Source: a virus
Reading direction: 5' to 3' (one strand)
Virus record (IMG/VR): IMGVR_UViG_3300007735_000449
Location: 1-20,331 of that record
Length of the DNA stretch: 20,331 nt
Made by a program: the position numbers and the translations under genes. Positions 4,741 to 15,938 of this stretch are shown here, piece by piece (position 1 is the stretch's first letter; each line of letters opens with the position of its first letter). The notes below the pieces were generated by a model. That model made no database searches. It was given only the letters and a program-made list of their open reading frames with translations, and had not been told where the DNA came from.

Positions 4741-5579
4741 AGCGCAAGAAGCCCGACGGCCTGCGGTATCTGGCCTGCGTGTCGGACCTGCACTCAGGAT
4801 GCCGGCTGGCCCTGATGCCACGGGGCGGGTTCGTGCTGGATGAGGGGACCGAGGTCAAGCCGTCCAAGATCCAGCTCAAGCTGAACGACATGTGGGACGA
4901 GTACTGGCAGTGGGTTGAGGATGAGACCAATGGGGAACCCTACGGTGTCGTGGTGAACGGCGACGCGACCGAGGGCGTCCACCACGGGTCCGTCACCCAA
5001 TGGACCCAGAACCTCGACGACCAGGTGCGGTGCTCACGGGTGCTGCTCGAGGATGTGGCTAGGAAGGCCGCAGGACGCTTCTACATGGTCCGTGGCACCG
5101 AGGCTCATGTCGGCAAGTCCGCGCAGCAGGAGGAGGCACTGGCGCGCGAACTAGGGGCGGTCCCGAACGAGGAAGGGCAGCACGCCCACTGGCAGCTCTG
5201 GCTCCGGCTGGGCGGGCACCTGATCCACTTCGCCCACCACATCGGCACGACCTCGAGCCCGTTCGCGGCGTCGGCTGGTCTCCAGCGGGAGATGGTGTCC
5301 GGGTACGTGGAGTCGGGGCGGTGGGGTGACGAGCCTGCGGCCATGTATGTCCGGTCGCACCGGCACTTCTCGAGCGAGGTACGGGAGCCGTCGAAGCATG
5401 GCGTGACGGCGGTGGTGGTCACGCCGGCGTGGCAGCTCAAGACCCCGTTCGGCCACAAGACTGCGGGGCGCATGATGCAGCCCCAAGTCGGTGGTATCCT
5501 GATCTGCGTGGGGGACAATGGACCCTACGTCAAGTCCAAGGTGTGGCGCATCGAGCGGTCCAAGGAGGTGACCCTGTGA
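4737..5579 (+). CDS. Calcineurin-like metallophosphoesterase
   Basis: The 280-residue protein shows the ordered metal-binding blocks of the calcineurin-like (Metallophos) superfamily. These are VSDLHSG (Asp17, His19), VVNGDATEG (Asp76), a variant RGTEAH in place of GNHE (119-124), FAHHIG (His167/His168) and a final SHRHF (207-211). The change of Asn to Thr-Glu-Ala in the GNHE block is unusual, and the first catalytic His is retained as His124. Relatives hydrolyse phosphodiesters or phosphomonoesters using two metal ions; the phage substrate cannot be told. ATG 4737 overlaps the upstream stop and the 3' end overlaps the next gene by GTGA. Confidence 0.82.
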   Translation: MKRKKPDGLRYLACVSDLHSGCRLALMPRGGFVLDEGTEVKPSKIQLKLNDMWDEYWQWVEDETNGEPYGVVVNGDATEGVHHGSVTQWTQNLDDQVRCSRVLLEDVARKAAGRFYMVRGTEAHVGKSAQQEEALARELGAVPNEEGQHAHWQLWLRLGGHLIHFAHHIGTTSSPFAASAGLQREMVSGYVESGRWGDEPAAMYVRSHRHFSSEVREPSKHGVTAVVVTPAWQLKTPFGHKTAGRMMQPQVGGILICVGDNGPYVKSKVWRIERSKEVTL

Positions 5580-8748: not shown

Positions 8749-8942
8749 CAGGCCTCCGTGGTCAGGGTCAGGGTCACCGCCTGGCCGATGTCGAGCGTGT
8801 GGTCGGGAAGGAACAGGACGGTGCCGTTCTCGAGCGTGGTGCGATAGCTGGTCACGACAGCCGGCGGGTCCAGCGTCAGGTCCATGCGGTTCATCTTCTC
8901 GATTCCCCGCACGGCGGTGGTCACTTCATAAACGGTCGTCAC
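8748..8942 (-). CDS. Small beta-rich protein, 64 aa, unknown
   Basis: The GTG start at 8942 overlaps the nuclease stop (GTGA), and the 3' end overlaps the next start. The peptide alternates Thr/Val/Leu (VYEVTTAVRGIEKMNRMDLT and VLFLPDHTLDIGQAVTLTLT), suggesting a small beta-sheet domain. No family or motif is recognised. It is translationally coupled to the RecB-like nuclease, which may hint at a partner role. Confidence 0.6.
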   Translation of the reverse strand: MTTVYEVTTAVRGIEKMNRMDLTLDPPAVVTSYRTTLENGTVLFLPDHTLDIGQAVTLTLTTEA

Positions 8943-9754
8943 TTGGCCTCCTTGGCGAACATGTCGTACAGCGTCAGAGCTGCGTTGAACCCGTCCATCA
9001 GCTGCGCGTAGTTGTAGTCGGTGCCACCCTTGTGCTGCACCCCGTCGCGGTCCTTGTAGTCGTATCGGCAGTCTCCCACGCGCCGGACCTCGACGTCGGG
9101 ATCACCGACCACCTTGGGCACCCGCACGATACCACCGATGAGCACCGGCTCGCCTGCGAACCTCGAGGCGGCTGCTGCATACGCTGCCACCTGCAGGTGG
9201 TAGGACTCGTAGATTCCCTTGCCAGACTTCCAGTCCCAGACCTCGAGGGCTCCATCCTCAGCCCGGGCGATGAGGTCGACGGTGCCGGCGTAGCGGTCGG
9301 TCCATACCGGCTGCTCAATGCGGACGGGGACCAGCCGGGCCCCCGCCCACCACGCCTTCCACGCCATGAACGCCCAGGCAGCCTCCTCGGGCATCTGCGG
9401 CTTAGGGCCCTGCTTCTCCCCCAGCTCACCCTTCAGGGTCCACTGGATCATGTTGTGGATGCTCGAGCCGATGTCGGCGGCCTTGGACAGCTTGCGCTGA
9501 TGCTGACGGGCCGGGCCCACGCGGGCACGGACGGCGGACACGAATTCGTCCGGCGTGCCGTGCTCACCATGGGCGTAGACTTCCCCAGCAGCCTCGAGCA
9601 CAGCGTCGCGCTCGAGGTCAGCCGACCACCGGATGAGGGCATCCGTGCCCAGCCCCAGCACCTTCAGGATCGTCGTCACGCGGGGCTTGAGACCATCCGG
9701 GGTCTCATAGCCCCTGCTCGTGACGCGGACATCCTTGTCCGTCGGCCAGGTCAC
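8939..9754 (-). CDS. Cas4/RecB-like PD-(D/E)XK nuclease, 271 aa
   Basis: GTG 9754 overlaps the upstream stop (GTGA). The RecB-family nuclease motifs appear in order: ADIGSSIH (His100), RYAGTVDLIA (Asp160), VWDWKSGKG (Asp174, Lys176) and HLQVAAYAAA (Gln188, Tyr192). Relatives (PDDEXK_1, Cas4, phage exonucleases) are metal-dependent DNA exonucleases or nickases used in recombination and repair. The four-cysteine iron-sulphur site of true Cas4 is not seen. The preceding zinc-ribbon gene is translationally coupled and may encode an accessory protein. No annealing protein is obvious nearby. Confidence 0.85.
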   Translation of the reverse strand: MTWPTDKDVRVTSRGYETPDGLKPRVTTILKVLGLGTDALIRWSADLERDAVLEAAGEVYAHGEHGTPDEFVSAVRARVGPARQHQRKLSKAADIGSSIHNMIQWTLKGELGEKQGPKPQMPEEAAWAFMAWKAWWAGARLVPVRIEQPVWTDRYAGTVDLIARAEDGALEVWDWKSGKGIYESYHLQVAAYAAAASRFAGEPVLIGGIVRVPKVVGDPDVEVRRVGDCRYDYKDRDGVQHKGGTDYNYAQLMDGFNAALTLYDMFAKEAK

Positions 9755-10041
9755 ATGTCCCCCTTGAACGTCGAGAGGGCCCGCTCCGCAGCCTCGAGAG
9801 CGGACTGGTAGTCCCCGGTGCCCTGATAGACCTTGCCGGCGAAGTCGAGGGCCGCGATGGTCAGCAGGTACTGCGGGGTCGCGCTCGAGGGCGGGGCGAC
9901 GGTAGCGGCGGGCTTGGGCGCACCACCCTTGCCGGGCTTGTACTTGCACCACGAGCCGTCGGGGTTCTTGGTGGGGCAGAACATGCCGAACTTGCCGGGG
10001 CGCAGCGGGGTGCCATGCTCGGGACAGAGGGCGTCACTCAT
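9751..10041 (-). CDS. Zinc-ribbon protein coupled to the nuclease, 96 aa
   Basis: ATG 10041 lies inside the 3' end of the upstream gene. CPEHGTPLRPG and FCPTKNPDGSWCKYK form a zinc ribbon at residues 6-34. A Pro/Ala/Lys linker (about 35-55) and a helical C-terminus (YLLTIAALDFAGKVYQGT, then ALEAAERALSTF) follow. Similar zinc modules occur on phage single-strand-DNA or recombination factors. The GTGA overlap with the RecB-like nuclease suggests that the two act together, which is an inference from context. Confidence 0.65.
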   Translation of the reverse strand: MSDALCPEHGTPLRPGKFGMFCPTKNPDGSWCKYKPGKGGAPKPAATVAPPSSATPQYLLTIAALDFAGKVYQGTGDYQSALEAAERALSTFKGDM

Positions 10042-10213
10042 GATCGTCTCCTAGCTTGAGTAGATGGTCGGACTCGCACGGGCCACATGCCCACAACCCC
10101 GTGCCATTGTTAGTGGTTACAGCCGATACCGTACCGCACATGTCGCAGACCTGGATGATGATTCTGCGGGGAATGCCAGTCCCGTTTTCTGCTAGTGCCT
10201 TGCGTCGTGTCAC
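10034..10213 (-). CDS. 59-aa zinc-ribbon miniprotein
   Basis: GTG 10213 overlaps the stop of the XRE-type gene (GTGA), and the frame ends at TGA 10036-10034, overlapping the next gene's start. The peptide has CDMCGTVS and ACGPCESDHL, two CxxC knuckles 17 residues apart, forming a classic zinc ribbon. It is preceded by a basic N-terminus (VTRRKALAENGTGIPRRIII). The two coupled junctions and the clean zinc site make it a convincing gene despite its size. Confidence 0.75.
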   Translation of the reverse strand: MTRRKALAENGTGIPRRIIIQVCDMCGTVSAVTTNNGTGLWACGPCESDHLLKLGDDHE

Positions 10214-10482
10214 TCGTACTGCTCCAGCATCCGCCGGGCGAGAGTCTTGCAGCCCTGCAGGGCAGCCCGTTCGATAGCAGCCTCGTCCCTGCCATACGCT
10301 CGCGCCATGCGCTGGATGATCGCCTGCGACGGCATCTGCGCGCCACGTTCCACCCGCAGCAGGTAGCTCCGGGTGATGCCACCGATAGCCACCGCACGTT
10401 CCGCGCTGGTAGGGAACCCCGCCTGCTGGCCGATGATGGACAGCGGGTTACTGGTAAGTCGCACTCGCCTAAGCTCCGACAC
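10210..10482 (-). CDS. XRE/Cro-like helix-turn-helix regulator, 90 aa
   Basis: GTG 10482 follows CGGAGGAC. The core from about residue 13 (NPLSIIGQQAGFPTSAERAV) through IGGITRSYLLRVERGAQMPS to IIQRMARAYGRDEAAIERAA has the order of an XRE/lambda-repressor fold: helix 1, helix 2, recognition helix ITRSYLLRVERG, then PSxxxxxRMARAYG. The insertion between helices 1 and 3 is longer than usual. It is probably a DNA-binding regulator of phage promoters and could act on the shared leftward promoters. There is no peptidase (LexA/CI) tail. Confidence 0.75.
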   Translation of the reverse strand: MSELRRVRLTSNPLSIIGQQAGFPTSAERAVAIGGITRSYLLRVERGAQMPSQAIIQRMARAYGRDEAAIERAALQGCKTLARRMLEQYE

Positions 10483-10512
10483 GTGTCCTCCGATAGGTGA
10501 GAGAAAGAGGGC

Positions 10513-10545
10513 CCGGGGAGAAGGGGGGGCACCTTCTCTACCCGG
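10513..10545 (-). terminator. Leftward terminator-like hairpin
   Basis: CCGGGGAGAAGG pairs with CCTTCTC-TA-CCCGG (12 bp with a two-base bulge) around a GGGGGCA loop. On the minus strand it is followed by CCCTCTTTCTCTC. It lies in the 144-bp gap between the leftward gene ending at 10627 and the XRE-type gene, so it may reduce readthrough into the regulator. I see no clear promoter in the rest of the gap. Confidence 0.6.
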
Positions 10546-10626
10546 CTTGCGCCGCCTAACCAGGGCGGACCCTCGAATTGTCCCCGTGCTACGCCCCCAA
10601 CACCCCCGGACCGCAGGGTGCCACAG

Positions 10627-10776
10627 CTACCACCGTTCCGCAAGTCCCGCCGGCGGCCCACCGTGCAGCCGGTAGAAGTCCGCCAGCTCCTGCTCGAGGG
10701 CCTTGCGTGCCACCGGATCGTCCTCAGCCTCGATAGCATCCCAGAAAGACTCTGCCACCCGTGCGAACGTGCTCAC
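10627..10776 (-). CDS. 49-aa helical miniprotein
   Basis: The GTG at 10776 overlaps the upstream stop (GTGA); a GTG three bases earlier is also possible. The peptide VSTFARVAESFWDAIEAEDD continues through ARKALEQELADFYRLHGG to a Pro-Gly-Leu-Ala end. It is acidic and amphipathic. No family is recognised. Confidence 0.6.
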   Translation of the reverse strand: MSTFARVAESFWDAIEAEDDPVARKALEQELADFYRLHGGPPAGLAERW

Positions 10777-11006
10777 CACGTGCCTCCCCTCATGGCCCGC
10801 TGCTCGTCGTGCCAGCACTCTCGGGCCTCCTCGAGCGCGGCCTCGATGCACTCCACGCACCGGTCGTCGTCCTCACCGTCCAGCAGGTGCCCGCAGCTCG
10901 AGCACCGCACGTGCTGGCAGGCCTCGCACATCTCCTCGAACGCGGTCCTGCCACCGCCCCCGGACCCATCCCCACAGAACACGCACTGCGCCTTGGTCGC
11001 CGGCAT
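10773..11006 (-). CDS. Eight-cysteine zinc-binding miniprotein, 77 aa
   Basis: ATG 11006 overlaps the upstream TAA (TAATG). Four CxxC pairs are present: CVFC (8-11), CEAC (27-30), CSSC (35-38) and CVEC (50-53). They could hold two zinc ions in a tandem or interleaved ribbon. A helical, Glu-rich C-terminus with a further Cys and His (ARECWHDEQ) follows. Related arrangements occur in RING-like or rubredoxin-like host-interaction proteins, but no assignment is possible. Confidence 0.7.
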   Translation of the reverse strand: MPATKAQCVFCGDGSGGGGRTAFEEMCEACQHVRCSSCGHLLDGEDDDRCVECIEAALEEARECWHDEQRAMRGGTW

Positions 11007-11338
11007 TAGAACGCCTCCCCTGCCAAGTTGTGGATCGCCTGCGCCAGCCGAACGTAGATGTCCGTGGCGCGCTCCCGTGCCATCCGATACTGCGCCCGCC
11101 GCTCCGTGCCATCCCCGAGCATGATGAGAGATCGAGAGAGGGCCTGCTCCTCGCGCACGCGGGCCGCAGCGTACAGCCTCGAGAGGCGCAGGATGCGCCG
11201 CTCCGCCTGCCGGCGCATCCGTGCCATGTCCCGCGCCTGCTCCGCCTGCCAGTCGAACCCCTCGAGCCGGTGCGGATCGCGCAGGAACGCGCGATTGTTA
11301 GCGTCGGCCTCGAGCCGTTCCAGCGTCTTCTCGGTCAT
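11006..11338 (-). CDS. Helical basic protein, 110 aa (paralogue of the upstream gene)
   Basis: The start is ATG 11338, overlapping the upstream stop (TGATG) behind a G-rich ribosome-binding stretch; the frame is open upstream but overlaps the previous gene. The sequence is Arg/Glu/Ala-rich and almost all helix (RRQAERRILRLSRLYAAARV). It shares an order of blocks with the upstream gene: ANNRAF, then R-RILRLSRLYAAA, then YVRLAQAIHNLAG. This suggests a tandem duplication. Function is unknown. Confidence 0.65.
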   Translation of the reverse strand: MTEKTLERLEADANNRAFLRDPHRLEGFDWQAEQARDMARMRRQAERRILRLSRLYAAARVREEQALSRSLIMLGDGTERRAQYRMARERATDIYVRLAQAIHNLAGEAF

Positions 11339-11577
11339 CACATCCCCCCCATGTCGCGCACGGCCTGCTGCAGCCGGCAGTAGTAGTACACGGACCGCTT
11401 GTGCCACTCGGTGAAATTACCGGGGCTCACCGCACGCGCCTGCTGCCGCATCGCGACCCCGTACAGTCGGGCCAGGCGCATGACGTTGCGGACCTTGCGG
11501 GCCCGCTCATCGGCCACCGGATTGGCATCCTGGCCCCACACCCCTCGAGCCTGCTCGACATAAGCATTGTTCGCCAC
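11338..11577 (-). CDS. Helical protein, 79 aa (tandem paralogue)
   Basis: GTG 11577 is chosen because GGGGG lies exactly 6 bases upstream in a leader shared with two other genes. The protein runs VANNAYVEQARGVWGQDANP, then RKVRNVMRLARLYGVAMRQQ and ends YYYCRLQQAVRDMGGM. The blocks ANNAY, RNVMRLARLYGVA and YCRLQQAVRDMGG align with the downstream gene. It is the first gene behind the promoter at 11620-11648. No domain is recognised. Confidence 0.65.
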   Translation of the reverse strand: MANNAYVEQARGVWGQDANPVADERARKVRNVMRLARLYGVAMRQQARAVSPGNFTEWHKRSVYYYCRLQQAVRDMGGM

Positions 11578-11648
11578 TGTGTTCCCCCTAGGTTGTGCGG
11601 GCCCCTGCCCGCCGTGTACACCGTACAACACCTGCCAGTCGACTGCAA
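11578..11648 (-). promoter_or_regulatory. Leftward promoter plus structured leader
   Basis: The -35 TTGCAG (11648-11643) and -10 TACGGT (11625-11620) are separated by 17 bases. The leader contains the hairpin GCGGGC-AGGG-GCCCGC (11612-11597). It then has the 16-mer AACCTAGGGGGAACAC (11594-11579), with the G run 6 bases before the GTG start. The -10 is weak, but the layout matches two other leftward leaders in the window. Confidence 0.6.
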
Positions 11649-11651
11649 GTG

Positions 11652-11879
11652 CTATCTGTCCGTGTCGGGTTCGTGCCACATGCACAGCGGCCCAACGTTG
11701 AAGTGCCACGAACCATCATTAAACCGCTCGAGCCCCTGCGACAGCCACCCGCCCCGGATCAGAGACACGCCCCACAGGTCGCGCCGGCAATCCCCCAGCG
11801 TGTCCCAGGTGCGACGCTCGAGTCGGACCATCGGGGTCCGTGTCGGGCCCCAGTGCCACTGCCATTCACGCGCGGTCAT
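11652..11879 (-). CDS. Tryptophan-rich small protein, 75 aa
   Basis: ATG 11879 follows GGGGGTGTGAC, in which the upstream gene's last codons provide the G-rich ribosome-binding site. The sequence contains seven Trp (MTAREWQWHWGPTRT, RDLWGVSLIRGGWLS, SWHFNVGPLCMWHE) and looks like a compact beta-domain. It ends four bases before the -35 of the next promoter. No family is recognised. Confidence 0.6.
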   Translation of the reverse strand: MTAREWQWHWGPTRTPMVRLERRTWDTLGDCRRDLWGVSLIRGGWLSQGLERFNDGSWHFNVGPLCMWHEPDTDR

Positions 11880-11880
11880 G

Positions 11881-12045
11881 TCACACCCCCAAGTTATCGG
11901 CGCACGGCAGGCAGAATTCCTGCCAGTCTCCCGTACGGTAGAATTCCGTGCCACGAATATTCGTGCCACAATTGTCGCACACCCTGTGCGCCGGATCATG
12001 GAACCCCCACAGGATCGCATCCGCACGTCCACCGTTGCCGGTCAT
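11881..12045 (-). CDS. 54-aa zinc-ribbon miniprotein
   Basis: ATG 12045 is preceded by the same GGGGGTGTGAC junction as the next gene. CDNCGTNIRG (Cys23, Cys26) and FCLPCADN (Cys45, Cys48) form a four-cysteine zinc ribbon with a beta-hairpin between (TEFYRTGDWQE). The N-terminal 20 residues (MTGNGGRADAILWGFHDPAH) are unassigned. The frame is open upstream but overlaps another gene. It resembles single-zinc-ribbon phage proteins that bind nucleic acid or host factors. Confidence 0.65.
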   Translation of the reverse strand: MTGNGGRADAILWGFHDPAHRVCDNCGTNIRGTEFYRTGDWQEFCLPCADNLGV

Positions 12046-12046
12046 G

Positions 12047-12262
12047 TCACACCCCCATGTCGCGCACGAGGCGCGCGTTGAATTCATCCCCGGCCATGCA
12101 AGCTTCCACCATTGCATTATCGGCCGCGTCCCGGAATTCATCCGCCGACAGTGCGTCCAGGGTAGGATGCGCCATCCGCATCCACGCTTCCACGGCCGCC
12201 GGCGTAACCGTGTCGCATTCACACTCGCGCATGAGCTCGAGAATCAGGGCACGGTAGCTCAT
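12047..12262 (-). CDS. Small acidic helical protein, 71 aa
   Basis: ATG 12262 overlaps the upstream stop (ATGA). The peptide is mostly helix (MSYRALILELMRECECDTVT, then FRDAADNAMVEACMAGDEFN) and ends RLVRDMGV. Its last codons form the ribosome-binding site of the next gene. No family is recognised. Confidence 0.6.
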   Translation of the reverse strand: MSYRALILELMRECECDTVTPAAVEAWMRMAHPTLDALSADEFRDAADNAMVEACMAGDEFNARLVRDMGV

Positions 12263-12504
12263 TCCGCCACCATGCTTTCCACAGTATCGCCCGCGCGAAT
12301 GTTGCGGTCAGTGGAGACGCCATTGATGCACGCGTGCCACCAGTAGGATCCGGTTTCATCATAGACGTGCACCGCGCGGCCGGTCTCATTATGGAACCGG
12401 CGTGCCAGTGCCACCGCCTGTTCATAGGGACCGTAGAAATTCACGTCGTCCGATTGCATGGACGGCCGGGGCCGCTTGACCTCAATTCGATAGACGCCCG
12501 CCAT
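12259..12504 (-). CDS. Small alpha/beta protein, 81 aa
   Basis: ATG 12504 lies 6 bases after GGGGG in the shared leader and is the first gene behind a strong promoter. The sequence (VYRIEVKRPRPSMQSDDVNF, then YEQAVALARRFHNETGRAVH, then VYDETGSYWWH) has a beta-helix-beta look with aromatic residues. Small phage proteins of the pattern strand, PYEQAxxLARRF, strand are common, but no named family can be given. Confidence 0.65.
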   Translation of the reverse strand: MAGVYRIEVKRPRPSMQSDDVNFYGPYEQAVALARRFHNETGRAVHVYDETGSYWWHACINGVSTDRNIRAGDTVESMVAE

Positions 12505-12582
12505 TGTGTTCCCCCTAGGTTCGTGTCACGGGACCGTCCCGTGCCACGCCTGCAGTATAGTGCCACAAGATACTAGCGTCAA
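12505..12582 (-). promoter_or_regulatory. Strong leftward sigma70-like promoter plus structured leader
   Basis: The -35 TTGACG (12582-12577) and -10 TATACT (12559-12554) have exact 17-base spacing. CACGGGA-CGG-TCCCGTG (12543-12527) is a perfect 7-bp palindrome or hairpin just downstream of the start region. It extends by three more pairs after a mismatch. The 16-mer AACCTAGGGGGAACAC (12521-12506) provides the ribosome-binding site. The palindrome could be an operator or a leader hairpin. Confidence 0.8.
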
Positions 12583-12616
12583 GTGTCTTTTTTCACGCCT
12601 GCCATGCCCGCCCGCA

Positions 12617-12699
12617 GTGCCACCCGTGCCCGCCTAGCCTGCCGTGCCACGCCTACCGCGCCGTGCCACGCCTACAGGATCGCACGCCTACCGTGCCAC
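12617..12699. repeat. GTGCCACG-centred short repeats
   Basis: GCCGTGCCACGCCTAC occurs identically at 12641-12656 and 12660-12675, 19 bases apart. Degenerate partners are CGCACGCCTACCG (12681-12693) and GTGCCACGCGG (12693-12703). Another GTGCCAC starts at 12617. They are the densest part of a wider same-orientation GTGCCAC array. Confidence 0.75.
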
Positions 12700-12873
12700 G
12701 CGGCCGCGCCTACGGGCCCCGGAGCCTAGGCTAGCACCTTGGGCTTCCCGATAGACTCGGGCCCGCTGTAGGGCATTCTCGGCGCGCTCGAGCGTATGGG
12801 CCGCTCGAGTGTCGGCCAGGGTCAAGGTTAGGGGATCGCACGCGCTCGAGCGTAGGGTTCCCATAGGAAAGGA

Positions 12874-12895
12874 CCCCTAGCCTTTCGGCCAGGGG
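12874..12895 (-). terminator. Leftward terminator after the gene at 12918
   Basis: CCCCT-A-GCC-TTTC-GGC-C-AGGGG forms a stem of 5 plus 3 bp around one mismatch with a four-base loop. It lies 22 bases beyond the stop of the leftward gene and is followed on the minus strand by GGTCCTTTCC. The T-run is short. Confidence 0.6.
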
Positions 12896-12917
12896 CCCCG
12901 TAGGATTGCGTGCCGAT

Positions 12918-13118
12918 TCAGTCCAAGATCGTATCGTACAAGTCCCCATAACCTTCGGCTTCCAGAATTTCTGCGATAGCATGTCGTGCCGCGTCCGTAG
13001 GTTCCATCCCTTCGTCGAATGCGTCCCGATAATTCCAGTCGGGCAGATCGCCGGCTCCCAACCCATAGTGCGCGGCCATTATTGCGTCGACCTTGGCAAA
13101 CCAATTCTTGAATTCCAT
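12918..13118 (-). CDS. Small acidic protein, 66 aa
   Basis: ATG 13118 follows CTGGAGGGATGCT, a good ribosome-binding site; a GTG 30 bases upstream (13148) is an alternative. The protein (MEFKNWFAKVDAIMAAHYGL, then LPDWNYRDAFDEGMEPTDAA) resembles a small family widely seen in phages and plasmids. Its pattern is F-x2-W-x3-VD, then DLPD-x3-RD-x-(Y/F)-x-(D/E)-G-x-x-P. The family has no known function. A terminator follows and a hairpin precedes it. Confidence 0.7.
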   Translation of the reverse strand: MEFKNWFAKVDAIMAAHYGLGAGDLPDWNYRDAFDEGMEPTDAARHAIAEILEAEGYGDLYDTILD

Positions 13119-13159
13119 AGCATCCCTCCAGGTTAACGGGGCCCCCACAATAGGGGCCC
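13119..13159 (-). promoter_or_regulatory. GGGGCCC hairpin and ribosome-binding leader
   Basis: GGGCCCC (13159-13153) pairs with GGGGCCC (13144-13138) 13 bases beyond the stop of the previous leftward gene. It is followed by GTTAACCTGGAGGGATGCT before the next start. The T-run is weak, so partial termination or RNA processing is as likely as full termination. Confidence 0.5.
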
Positions 13160-13171
13160 ATGGTTACCGCA

Positions 13172-13888
13172 TTAGGATCGCGCGACCTTGTCGGCCTTAC
13201 CCTTGCCGATACCATGGGCCGGAAAGCCGATAATCGCGCTCCGGCCTGAGGCCGCGCACGCCCCGCACGCTGCGCAATTGGGCCGCGTCCCGGTAACAGC
13301 GGGGCACACTTGGATCACACGTCCGGCCGGAGTGTGCAACTTGGGCCCGTGCTTTTCCAGGGTATCGGCCGGAAGCACAACGGCAACGGGCCCGATTCCG
13401 AGACTGGCCAGTCTGTCGGCATGCGCCGGATTGTTAGCCGAAAGGTTAATCGTAAAGCCGTTGGCATTAGCGTGCGCGATTGCATCGCGGTTCGCCTTAA
13501 ACGCGGGCCCGAATACGGGTTTATGGGTATAAGTGTAGCCTCGCCGGCCGCGGTTAGCCTCCACAAGGGCGCGGAGCGCGGCCGCGTCAATCGCACCATT
13601 AACACCAGGAAGGTCGCCGGCGATATTGTGGCGCCACAATGCGCCAGTCTTAATTGCCCGCACCTTGACCAGGAACCCGGCCCACCGAACCGAGTTTTTC
13701 CCGCGCCGAGTTACGCGGTTCCAAGGCGTGCTGGTGCGGATGCCATCGGCAAAGCACCCGTTGCGCTTCAACGGACACGCGTCAGGGCATGACTGCCGGC
13801 CGCTGTAGGTGGCCGTCATGGGGCCCAATTTTGCGGCCCCGGTACGCTTGACAACAAGGACGGACGGGATGGATCGGTTAAACGTCAT
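13172..13888 (-). CDS. Cysteine-rich phage protein (DUF7227-like), 238 aa
   Basis: ATG 13888 overlaps the upstream stop (ATGA). The N-terminus NRSIPSVLVVKRTGAAKLGP is followed by the cluster SCPDACPLKRNGCFADG (about residues 33-49). A second cluster QVCPAVTGTRPNCAACGACA lies near the end, so metal binding is likely. The pattern KTGxxPVxxTxxxSCPxxCPLxxxGCYA is one I associate with phage proteins placed in DUF7227, whose function is unknown. The middle ANGFTINLSANNPAHADRLA is alpha/beta. The family call is from memory and not checked. Confidence 0.6.
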   Translation of the reverse strand: MTFNRSIPSVLVVKRTGAAKLGPMTATYSGRQSCPDACPLKRNGCFADGIRTSTPWNRVTRRGKNSVRWAGFLVKVRAIKTGALWRHNIAGDLPGVNGAIDAAALRALVEANRGRRGYTYTHKPVFGPAFKANRDAIAHANANGFTINLSANNPAHADRLASLGIGPVAVVLPADTLEKHGPKLHTPAGRVIQVCPAVTGTRPNCAACGACAASGRSAIIGFPAHGIGKGKADKVARS

Positions 13889-14115
13889 GAGCGGCCCCCG
13901 TTAAAGATCGCGGCCGACAGTCGGTTCGCGAAGTAGCACGCGGCCCCAAGACCGGCCCACGTTGCCGCGCTGCAAAGATACTGCGCCACGCTACCGGCCG
14001 GGGTCACCTTGACCCCGACAGTCGCGGCCGTTGCCGCGGCCCCGAGACTTCCAAGGATCATAATCGCGCGGGCCAGAATGCGTCCGATGCGGCACGTCGT
14101 GCAGTGACACTTCAC
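13885..14115 (-). CDS. Small two-span membrane protein, 76 aa
   Basis: GTG 14115 lies 6 bases after GGGGG in the shared leader sequence. The N-terminus has CHCTTC (3-8), followed by two hydrophobic segments at about 14-36 and 43-64, with few charges. It is translationally coupled to the cysteine-rich gene downstream. It might insert in the host membrane early in infection. No family is recognised. Confidence 0.6.
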   Translation of the reverse strand: MKCHCTTCRIGRILARAIMILGSLGAAATAATVGVKVTPAGSVAQYLCSAATWAGLGAACYFANRLSAAIFNGGRS

Positions 14116-14496: not shown

Positions 14497-14572
14497 TATG
14501 TTCCCCCCGTTATCGCGGGCCGCACCATGCGGCCCACGTACGCAATTTAGACTAATCGGCATCTACTGTCAA
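14497..14572 (-). promoter_or_regulatory. Consensus leftward sigma70-like promoter plus structured leader
   Basis: The -35 TTGACA (14572-14567) and -10 TAAATT (14549-14544) are 17 bases apart. The leader holds the perfect hairpin GGGCCGC-ATGGT-GCGGCCC (14535-14517) and a GGGGGG ribosome-binding run (14508-14503), 6 bases before ATG. Upstream, TACACTTGACA shares the ACTTGAC core with the promoter near 12580. Confidence 0.85.
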
Positions 14573-15257
14573 GTGTAGTGCACATACAAAGCGCAAGCGT
14601 AGGGGTCCACCTAGTGCAATTCCCCCAGGTCCACTATTGCTCAAGTGTGCAGTAGAGGGGGTCGATACACCGCATGCACTGGTGTGCAGGATACCGCCAC
14701 GACCGGCCAAATTTTGACCAGTACTCGGGCCTGCACAGGCGTGCAGTGTGCTAGTGCACGTGCGTGCAGCGACTTGCACGTGCGTGCAGTAGGCGCGGAT
14801 CGCATGCCCTAGTGGCCAGGAACCGACTCCCCCACCACCTACCCTGCGCTGGAGCGTAGGCTAGGCGTGCGCTGGAGCGCGGCGGCGGCGGCGTGCGCGG
14901 GCGCGATGCGGCGGTCGGCCGAACCGGGACCGCCACCCCGGGGCCCCCCAACGCTCGCTTGGCATTTCGAGATAGCAGCGACCCGAAATGTGCGCAAAAA
15001 TTCTGGGCAGAAAACGGGCGGCGGCGGGGGCGTAAGGCGTTGCGGCGAGCGGATTTTGCGGGAAAAGAGCGATCAGGGGGTTGACGATATGTGGGAGTGG
15101 ATACAGACTGTGGGTGCGAGACGACACGGAAGGACGCTGGTGCCGGCCTCACTCGTCGTCTCGCAGCGCGGGAGTGGGGATGGAACCCTGCTATGGGGCC
15201 GGTACTGGCGTCCTTTTGCTATGGGAGGGTTGTGTGGAGGCAGGGAGGTGGGCCCGG
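14573..15257. other. Divergent control region without a gene (685 bp)
   Basis: This separates the leftward and rightward blocks. It contains TGCAC/GTGCA motifs, described separately, and TGCGCTGGAGCG twice (14845-14856, 14868-14879). A very GC-rich stretch (14876-14950) is followed by an inverted repeat CATTTCG/CGAAATG (14963-14969, 14984-14990) and a short A-rich segment (GCGCAAAAATTCTGG, 14993-15007). A rightward promoter must be near, but I could not fix it: TTGACG at 15081 lacks a good -10. Frames here are GC-driven and unconvincing. Confidence 0.65.
14578..14789. repeat. TGCAC-rich motif cluster with 15-bp direct repeats
   Basis: About eleven TGCAC/GTGCA pentamers lie in 212 bp. The longest unit, TGCACGTGCGTGCAG, occurs at 14755-14769 and 14775-14789, exactly 20 bases apart, and each copy is nearly self-complementary. 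Placement next to a divergent promoter suggests operators or initiator-binding sites. Confidence 0.7.
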
Positions 15258-15938
15258 ATGAACCTGGTGGTGGCGGAGGCGATGGCGGAGATCCGCTCGA
15301 GGCAGCTGACGCTGGAGGAGCAGGGGCGGCTGGCGTTGGCGTGGATGGATGTTTATGTGATGGGGTGTGGGGCGGGGGCGGACGAGGGAACGTGGCGTAA
15401 GGCGTTGGGGTACAGCGAGGAGGAGTGGGCGGGGGTCCGGCCTGGGTACCGGGATGTCCTCGAGCATGGTGAGGGGTGGTGGGGGCTGCGGTTCCTGCAT
15501 GCGGAGGTGGTTAGGCAGGGGCAGGTGAGCGAGAAGCAGCGCGGGAACGTGGGTAAGCGTTACGGTGGTATACCAAACCCTACGGTGGTAGAATCTGGTA
15601 TACCAACTCCTACCACCGTATACCAGATGCCTACGGTGGTATACCCTGCCACTGCCACTGCCACTACCACAGAACCTAAACCTTCGGTGAGAGTGCCTGT
15701 GGGGTTCTTGGAGTTCTGGGAGGGGTACAGGTGTGAGCGGAGGAGGAACAAGCCTGCGGCGATGAGGGAGTGGGTGAAGCAGGGGTGTGAGGAGATCTGG
15801 GCGGACGTGGTGGGGGGGCTCGAGAGGTTCAGGGAGACGAAGCAGTGGCGTGAGGGATACATGCCGGAGCCCCACCGCTGGCTGAAGGCCAGAGGGTGGG
15901 AGGACGAAGTGGTAGAGTCCAAGGGCGAAGACTGGTAG
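15258..15938 (+). CDS. O-like replication initiator (DUF1376-type N-terminus), 226 aa
   Basis: ATG 15258 follows GGGAGG; GTG 15234, behind another GGGAGGG, is an alternative start. Residues 10-100 (IRSRQLTLEEQGRLALAWMD, then GYSEEEWAGVRPGYRDVLEH and SEKQRGNVGKR) follow the pattern of DUF1376-type winged-helix domains of phage initiators. Residues 103-140 are a low-complexity Pro/Thr/Val linker whose DNA carries iterons. Residues 149-217 (GFLEFWEGYRCERRRNKPAA to PEPHRWLKARGWED) match the C-terminal region of lambda-O-like replisome organisers. It probably binds the origin and recruits the helicase encoded downstream. Confidence 0.72.
   Translation: MNLVVAEAMAEIRSRQLTLEEQGRLALAWMDVYVMGCGAGADEGTWRKALGYSEEEWAGVRPGYRDVLEHGEGWWGLRFLHAEVVRQGQVSEKQRGNVGKRYGGIPNPTVVESGIPTPTTVYQMPTVVYPATATATTTEPKPSVRVPVGFLEFWEGYRCERRRNKPAAMREWVKQGCEEIWADVVGGLERFRETKQWREGYMPEPHRWLKARGWEDEVVESKGEDW
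15561..15645 (+). repeat. Iterons inside the initiator gene: candidate replication origin
   Basis: The decamer TACGGTGGTA occurs at 15561, 15581 and 15632 on + and at 15611-15620 on -, with start-to-start steps of 20, 30 and 21 bases. TGGTATACCA is a perfect palindrome at 15566-15575 and 15596-15605. The copies lie in different reading frames, so protein sequence alone does not explain them. The site within the linker of an O-like gene is where the lambda origin lies. A GCCACT repeat follows. Confidence 0.75.

Follow-up and report, generated by a model that had tools for sequence, protein, structure and literature searches.

In an uncultured phage, one exact heptamer, GTGCCAC on the plus strand, is written in a single orientation through a promoter-like gap and the small genes that follow it. 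The array is real, strongly non-random, and oriented, and it is probably functional at the DNA level. At a probability of roughly 40%, we favor the reading that its copies are operator- or stoperator-like sites in double-stranded DNA, read by a sequence-specific DNA-binding protein that would control the leftward early operon. The window analyzed here is the whole stretch of DNA, an IMG/VR record of 20,331 bp with 63% G+C.

A second record, G002 (IMGVR_UViG_3300011116_000747), runs backwards relative to the window and overlaps it by 3,612 bp at one end (99.9%) and by 127 bp at the other (100%). The phage is therefore about 36 kb and circular or permuted. Its gene set includes a terminase, portal, major head protein, endolysin, DnaB-like helicase, initiator-like protein, and PD-(D/E)XK exonuclease. 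Megablast of the sequence against phages returned no match, and neither did a terminase search of genome contigs. The window is rich in CTCGAG (53 versus 9.2 expected under an order-2 model), and the ~36-kb genome has 82 CTCGAG versus 9 GAGCTC; a maximal-order model accounts for much of this excess (65 expected). The divergent gap before the replication genes (14563–14866) has a one-sided word of its own, GTGCAG, with five copies on the plus strand and one on the minus strand.

The 14 copies listed in the first-pass annotation are all present, exact, and on the plus strand (starts 11401, 11673, 11703, 11853, 11948, 11963, 12334, 12408, 12541, 12560, 12617, 12644, 12663, and 12693), with none reversed within 11401–12699. 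The genes here run on the minus strand, so in coding-strand terms the word is GTGGCAC. Two extra copies in the same orientation (10618–10713, minus strand; plus-strand starts 10618 and 10707) lie between the gene at 10773–11006 and the helix-turn-helix (HTH) gene and stretch the cluster leftwards. Across the window, GTGCCAC occurs 17 times on the plus strand and once on the minus strand, at 5092, where 5.07 are expected on both strands together. A total of 18 was reached in 0 of 100 shuffles of the window. The remainder of the phage adds one copy, reversed. The strand bias asserted earlier is upheld by strand-specific counting. Sixteen of the 17 same-orientation copies in the window, and 16 of the 19 known genome-wide, are packed into 2.1 kb (10618 to 12699). 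The random expectation, previously put at well under one, is 0.19 per 1.5-kb stretch under a Markov model (log10 P about −21). For the core hexamer TGGCAC, the minus strand of 10600–12720 holds 21 copies and the plus strand of 10500–13900 holds 0. Orientation relative to transcription is identical in 16 of 16 copies in 10600–12720. No sequence conservation beyond the seven bases was found in the copy flanks, and no helical phasing was found among the 21 TGGCAC copies of that interval. When 141 sources of at least 8 kb were compared, the GTGGCAC array was the top-ranked 7-mer cluster with diverse flanks and non-frame-locked spacing.

Eight copies lie in four small genes on the minus strand (11401–12414; starts 12408, 12334, 11963, 11948, 11853, 11703, 11673, and 11401). 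They occupy all three reading frames, which excludes a protein repeat, as had been claimed. The same annotation had spread the copies over five genes, a promoter spacer, and a gene-free gap. Spacer and gap stand, and the genes of the interval that hold copies are four: two copies in 12259–12504, two in 11881–12045, three in 11652–11879, and one in 11338–11577, with none in 12047–12262 and six in the gap. The first operon gene (12259–12504, minus strand) encodes 81 amino acids of no family, and its low-confidence mixed alpha/beta model has no evident HTH. The small genes at 12047–12262, 11881–12045, and 11652–11879 (11652–12262 overall, minus strand) follow; the product of 11881–12045 is Cys-rich and zinc-ribbon-like below cut-off, and that of 11652–11879 is Trp-rich. 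Two neighboring small genes, 11338–11577 and 11006–11338 (minus strand), are paralogs with 34% identity. Searches found no relatives of the 12259–12504 and 11006–11338 products. A leader, AACCTAGGGGGAACACA, stands directly before the start codon of two genes (starts 11577 and 12504), at 11578–11600 and 12505–12525. Further left, 10210–10482 (minus strand) encodes a 90-amino-acid XRE-type HTH protein with 45% identity to the syntenic protein of G009. Its position makes it the nearest candidate reader of the motif. What had been called a RecB-like nuclease, encoded at 8939–9859, is a PD-(D/E)XK phage exonuclease whose similarity to RecB-like proteins and Cas4 is sub-threshold.

The array is densest in the promoter gap, with six copies in 216 bp. 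Reading leftward, the order is the DUF7227 gene (PF23872, phrog_2554; 13172–13888, minus strand), a small gene, a hairpin, the gap array, a promoter-like site, the small genes, and the two further copies. DUF7227 lies upstream of the array and served as the position marker in other phages. The hairpin that separates the DUF7227 operon from the gap (12870–12899, minus strand) is strong and terminator-like, and is absent from the T-run scan calls. The gap array spans 12541–12699 on the minus strand (plus-strand starts 12541, 12560, 12617, 12644, 12663, and 12693). A sigma-70-like promoter, TTGACG-17-TATACT (12582–12554, minus strand), is predicted from a consensus match at 10 of 12 positions. 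Four gap copies lie upstream of its −35 box, the fifth is inside its spacer (12560–12566), as first annotated, and the sixth is at the predicted start. An imperfect inverted repeat at that start site (12522–12548, minus strand) holds the motif copy 12541–12547 in one arm; the corresponding RNA hairpin, at about −17 kcal/mol, is a weak signal (z −2.0). Several gap copies sit within a degenerate GTAGGCGTGGCACGG unit. The gap also contains a 19-bp near-tandem repeat, and an A+T-rich stretch lies beside the promoter, which direct repeats flank. Rfam and tRNA searches gave no match.

We took the word from the gap alone (12505–12720) and counted its recurrences in 10600–12504. Defined in this way, GTGGCAC is found 10 more times downstream, where 0.18 are expected (P = 7e-15). 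Three words that are likewise repeated in the gap, AGGCGTG (5 copies there), GTAGGCG (4), and GCGTGGC (4), recur 0 times in 10600–12504, and duplication of gap DNA is therefore no explanation. Recurrence there is seen for TGGCACG (10) and GGCACGG (4), two gap words overlapping the motif. The 8 in-gene copies compare with 3.0–3.4 when synonymous codons are redrawn (8 reached in 0 of 5000) and with 0.34 when codon order is shuffled. For TGGCAC, the in-gene count is 13 versus 5.3–5.7 with synonymous codons redrawn. The pair Trp-His, coded by TGG CAC, occurs 6 times in the genes versus 0.5 expected. The recurrence and the in-gene copies both exceed expectation, so the word appears to be maintained as a DNA sequence. 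It may have shaped the encoded proteins too.

No comparable GTGCCAC cluster was found in 15 terminase-bearing records, which have at most 5 copies per strand and most of which do not cover the region. G009, which is syntenic up to the HTH gene, lacks the array. Loss in close relatives, named in the first-pass annotation as a point against the motif, is thus seen in part, in relatives none of which is near-identical over this region. Several candidate analogues were rejected. A strong one-strand cluster in G009, GGGCCGCTGCG, is a 12-bp minisatellite in coding DNA that specifies an Ala-rich stretch. A scan of viral contigs for a triple-GTGCCAC pattern gave at least 120 stretches, and among the matches listed nearly all spacings are divisible by three, as in protein repeats. 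An unrelated phage, L118, carries 29 GTGCCAC (19 plus, 10 minus) over 11 kb, which is a different phenomenon.

DUF7227 loci of other phages show other words: TTGGTCA (L138), GCGCTGG/GCTGGTGG (L149, L150), TTATCCAC (L136), CTGCACTCC (L171), and others. L138 is the closest parallel to the GTGGCAC array. It has DUF7227, a hairpin-like sequence, a non-coding TTGGTCA array, a promoter-like TTGACT...GATAGT, and the next genes, with the hairpin, the promoter, and a TGGTCA within the promoter-like spacer identified by eye. The next genes hold 5 TTGGTCA versus 0.14 expected (P = 3.5e-7). On the array strand the word occurs 0 times outside 10601–12700, and the opposite strand of the whole locus has 3. 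In L314, CTCGCGC occurs 10 times with 0 reversed, versus 0.9 expected in the locus, and is scattered through small genes. L136 has 7 copies of TTATCCAC in one orientation at the comparable place. Six closely spaced copies of TTATCCACA, also in one orientation, adjoin A+T-rich DNA downstream of its DUF7227 gene (L136:5733–5814). Both L136 words are DnaA-box-like.

Arrays behind DUF7227 were scanned for in 2.5-kb windows, counting one-orientation arrays at log10 P ≤ −7. Only same-orientation counts are meaningful: any word read on one strand appears as its complement on the opposite one, which makes strand labels arbitrary. For the first set, 37 of 54 loci were used after apparent near-duplicates and short loci were removed by hand, and 32 had 2 kb downstream. 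Arrays occurred in 10 of 32 windows behind DUF7227 versus 2 of 72 control windows (p = 1e-4), at cut-offs picked after viewing the discovery set. The second set comprised 105 of 107 loci (L245 and L300 left out; the L300 DUF7227 locus is on the same record as L148), from which 10 near-duplicates were dropped, giving 77 downstream and 128 control windows; DUF7227 occurs on about 600 contigs in all. In this set, whose contigs may partly be related to the first, arrays occurred in 13 of 77 versus 7 of 128 windows (p = 0.008), about threefold; at log10 P −8 the counts are 9 of 77 versus 6 of 128 (p = 0.058). The DUF7227-associated arrays are probably not all of one kind: some are simple tandem spacers, and the L136 member looks like a DnaA-box array. 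The literature searched contained no mention of DUF7227. Titles and abstract openings of papers naming GTGGCAC with phage show no such array, and a search for similar phage arrays likewise found none by title or abstract opening.

Several other explanations were weighed. A neutral, mutational origin, in which slippage and short duplications built up the word in orphan genes and rapidly changing spacer DNA, is unlikely. The near-tandem repeat in the gap, the word-rich spacers of similar kind in L150, L303, and L325, and the relatives without the array would all fit it, but the downstream copies have unrelated flanks, the other gap words do not recur, and one exact heptamer exceeds the codon-choice expectation. 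Iterons of an origin or a partition site, to which an initiator or a centromere-binding protein would bind, are improbable in light of the replication region. Direct repeats do flank the promoter beside the A+T-rich stretch, and the one-orientation boxes of L136 occupy the comparable place. However, an initiator-like gene at 15.2–15.9 kb, assigned by initiator family and likely encoding the replication initiator, contains its own TACGGTGGTATACC repeats (15561–15646, plus strand; seen by eye). These resemble lambda-O-type origin iterons and are more likely the origin of replication, making an origin at the array less likely. No partition gene was recognized among the proteins scanned, and irregular spacing, a flankless 7-bp core, and copies within genes as far as 2 kb off also argue against iterons. 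TGGCAC matches the −24 half of the consensus recognized by sigma-54. Promoters of the sigma-54 type, in which it would be the −24 element, are nonetheless excluded here, since GC at the required −12 spacing (GG-N10-GC) is found in 0 of 21 copies.

The first-pass annotation described a nucleotide-level, oriented motif that could be a recombination (Chi-like), segregation, or nuclease-protection signal. Its DNA-level nature and orientation are borne out; the three suggested roles are conjectural, and the Chi-like one is doubtful, with copies confined to 2.1 kb and no support in the genomes tested. Here the word would be the Chi of a host RecBCD/AddAB-type nuclease, packed near the origin, where the enzyme stops degrading and starts recombination. 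In its favor, the word is short, exact, flank-independent, and oriented, in coding and non-coding DNA alike. In lambdoid phages that lack a recombinase, Chi sites are reported to cluster near the origin (PMC3784561), and the E. coli Chi octamer GCTGGTGG occurs on one strand in the comparable gap of the DUF7227 phages L150 (9), L149 (6), and L170 (4). However, a Chi-type signal is expected to be more spread than 16 of 19 genome copies in 2.1 kb, the phage encodes its own exonuclease, and an order-4 Markov model of the L150 array explains its octamers (9 seen, 8.4 expected; order 3, 3.3). We also counted the word in 12 Acidobacteria genomes, eight with a CTCGAG excess like the phage's and four without. 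In every one of the 12, GTGGCAC occurs less often than its reversed control, although this may not be the host's group, and the host search through CTCGAG excess found it unenriched in the CTCGAG-rich Acidobacteria. Among Acidobacteria with that excess, G107 for example has 618 close CTCGAG pairs versus 8 for the control. A signal at the RNA level, with GUGGCAC of early transcripts read by an RNA-binding protein, RNase, or small RNA, is just as doubtful. The transcribed strand carries every copy, 10 of the copies follow the start of the first gene, and TAACTGA heptamer repeats have been proposed as post-transcriptional sites in Beggiatoaceae (PMC4679880). Yet the predicted start has five copies ahead of it, one in the spacer and four above the −35 box, and only transcripts that read through the strong hairpin would include these. 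Because copies occur upstream of and in the promoter, an RNA signal alone cannot explain them all.

We therefore favor the operator/stoperator-like reading because the word stands above, in, and at the start of the promoter and then runs through the same transcription unit, and because it changes between phages while its place is kept. The array does not extend beyond a single transcription unit and the region that controls it. L138, with the same layout and a different word, and the enrichment behind DUF7227 in two sets add support. A binding protein would recognize the double-stranded core (G)TGGCAC and control a leftward operon starting at about 12547, from a promoter that is presumably early. 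Sites upstream of, within, and just past the promoter would act as operators. Scattered in-gene copies would be stoperator-like roadblocks or local loading sites in the same unit. The reader is probably phage-encoded; its co-evolution with the word is our proposed reason why the word differs between phages at the comparable place. No integrase or immunity repressor was recognized among the proteins scanned, so a lysogeny-type repressor role is unsupported. Seven exact bases with neither conserved flanks nor helical phasing would make a short and rigid operator, operators are seldom packed densely into genes, and the roughly threefold enrichment of the second set weakens the case as well. The main weakness is that a 7-bp, exact, flankless, in-gene word resembles Chi. 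If the copies are binding sites, the phage imposes a DNA code atop the protein code in a single operon, and a gap-defined word that predicts downstream copies is a handle for cognate DNA-binding proteins of uncultured phages. More speculatively, and with odds well against it, the array could represent a widespread, undescribed class of phage early-region control elements. Such a phage-specific heptamer would be dense between a transcription stop and the next early promoter and would continue through the genes beyond, constraining their codons and even their amino acids. It would be read by a fast-diverging phage protein acting on initiation and elongation, at a locus marked by DUF7227.

Known repeated elements resemble the array in part. 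The start-associated sequences of Cluster K mycobacteriophages are repeated, one-orientation phage elements tied to start codons, unlike GTGGCAC, which is not tied to start codons. The Beggiatoaceae TAACTGA repeats are likewise heptamer direct repeats, but they are chromosomal, come in sets of two to six, and mostly stand just before start codons (PMC4679880). Chi in lambdoid phages shares the short, exact, oriented word and its concentration near replication genes, yet GTGGCAC reaches about 11/kb over 1.3 kb versus 0.2/kb in recombinase-less phages, according to Bobay et al. 2013 (PMC3784561). If it were Chi, the array would identify the recombination signal used by an uncultured host, at a packing far denser than that paper describes. 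The stoperators and operators of Cluster A mycobacteriophages (L5, Bxb1), as described in PMC6550527 and PMC9283540, are many asymmetric one-orientation sites, some in early promoters, with a word that varies between phages. GTGGCAC is likewise asymmetric, in one orientation relative to transcription, and present within a promoter, presumably an early one, and its word too differs between phages. In contrast to the 13-bp Cluster A sites, found genome-wide and mostly in short intergenic spaces, it is an exact 7-bp core with no flank conservation, confined to 2.1 kb and largely in genes. The candidate counterpart of the Cluster A repressor, which pairs an HTH with a Stoperator domain, is the 90-amino-acid XRE protein, the only one nearby. 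On present evidence, the GTGGCAC array is best placed with binding-site arrays rather than with a categorically new system.
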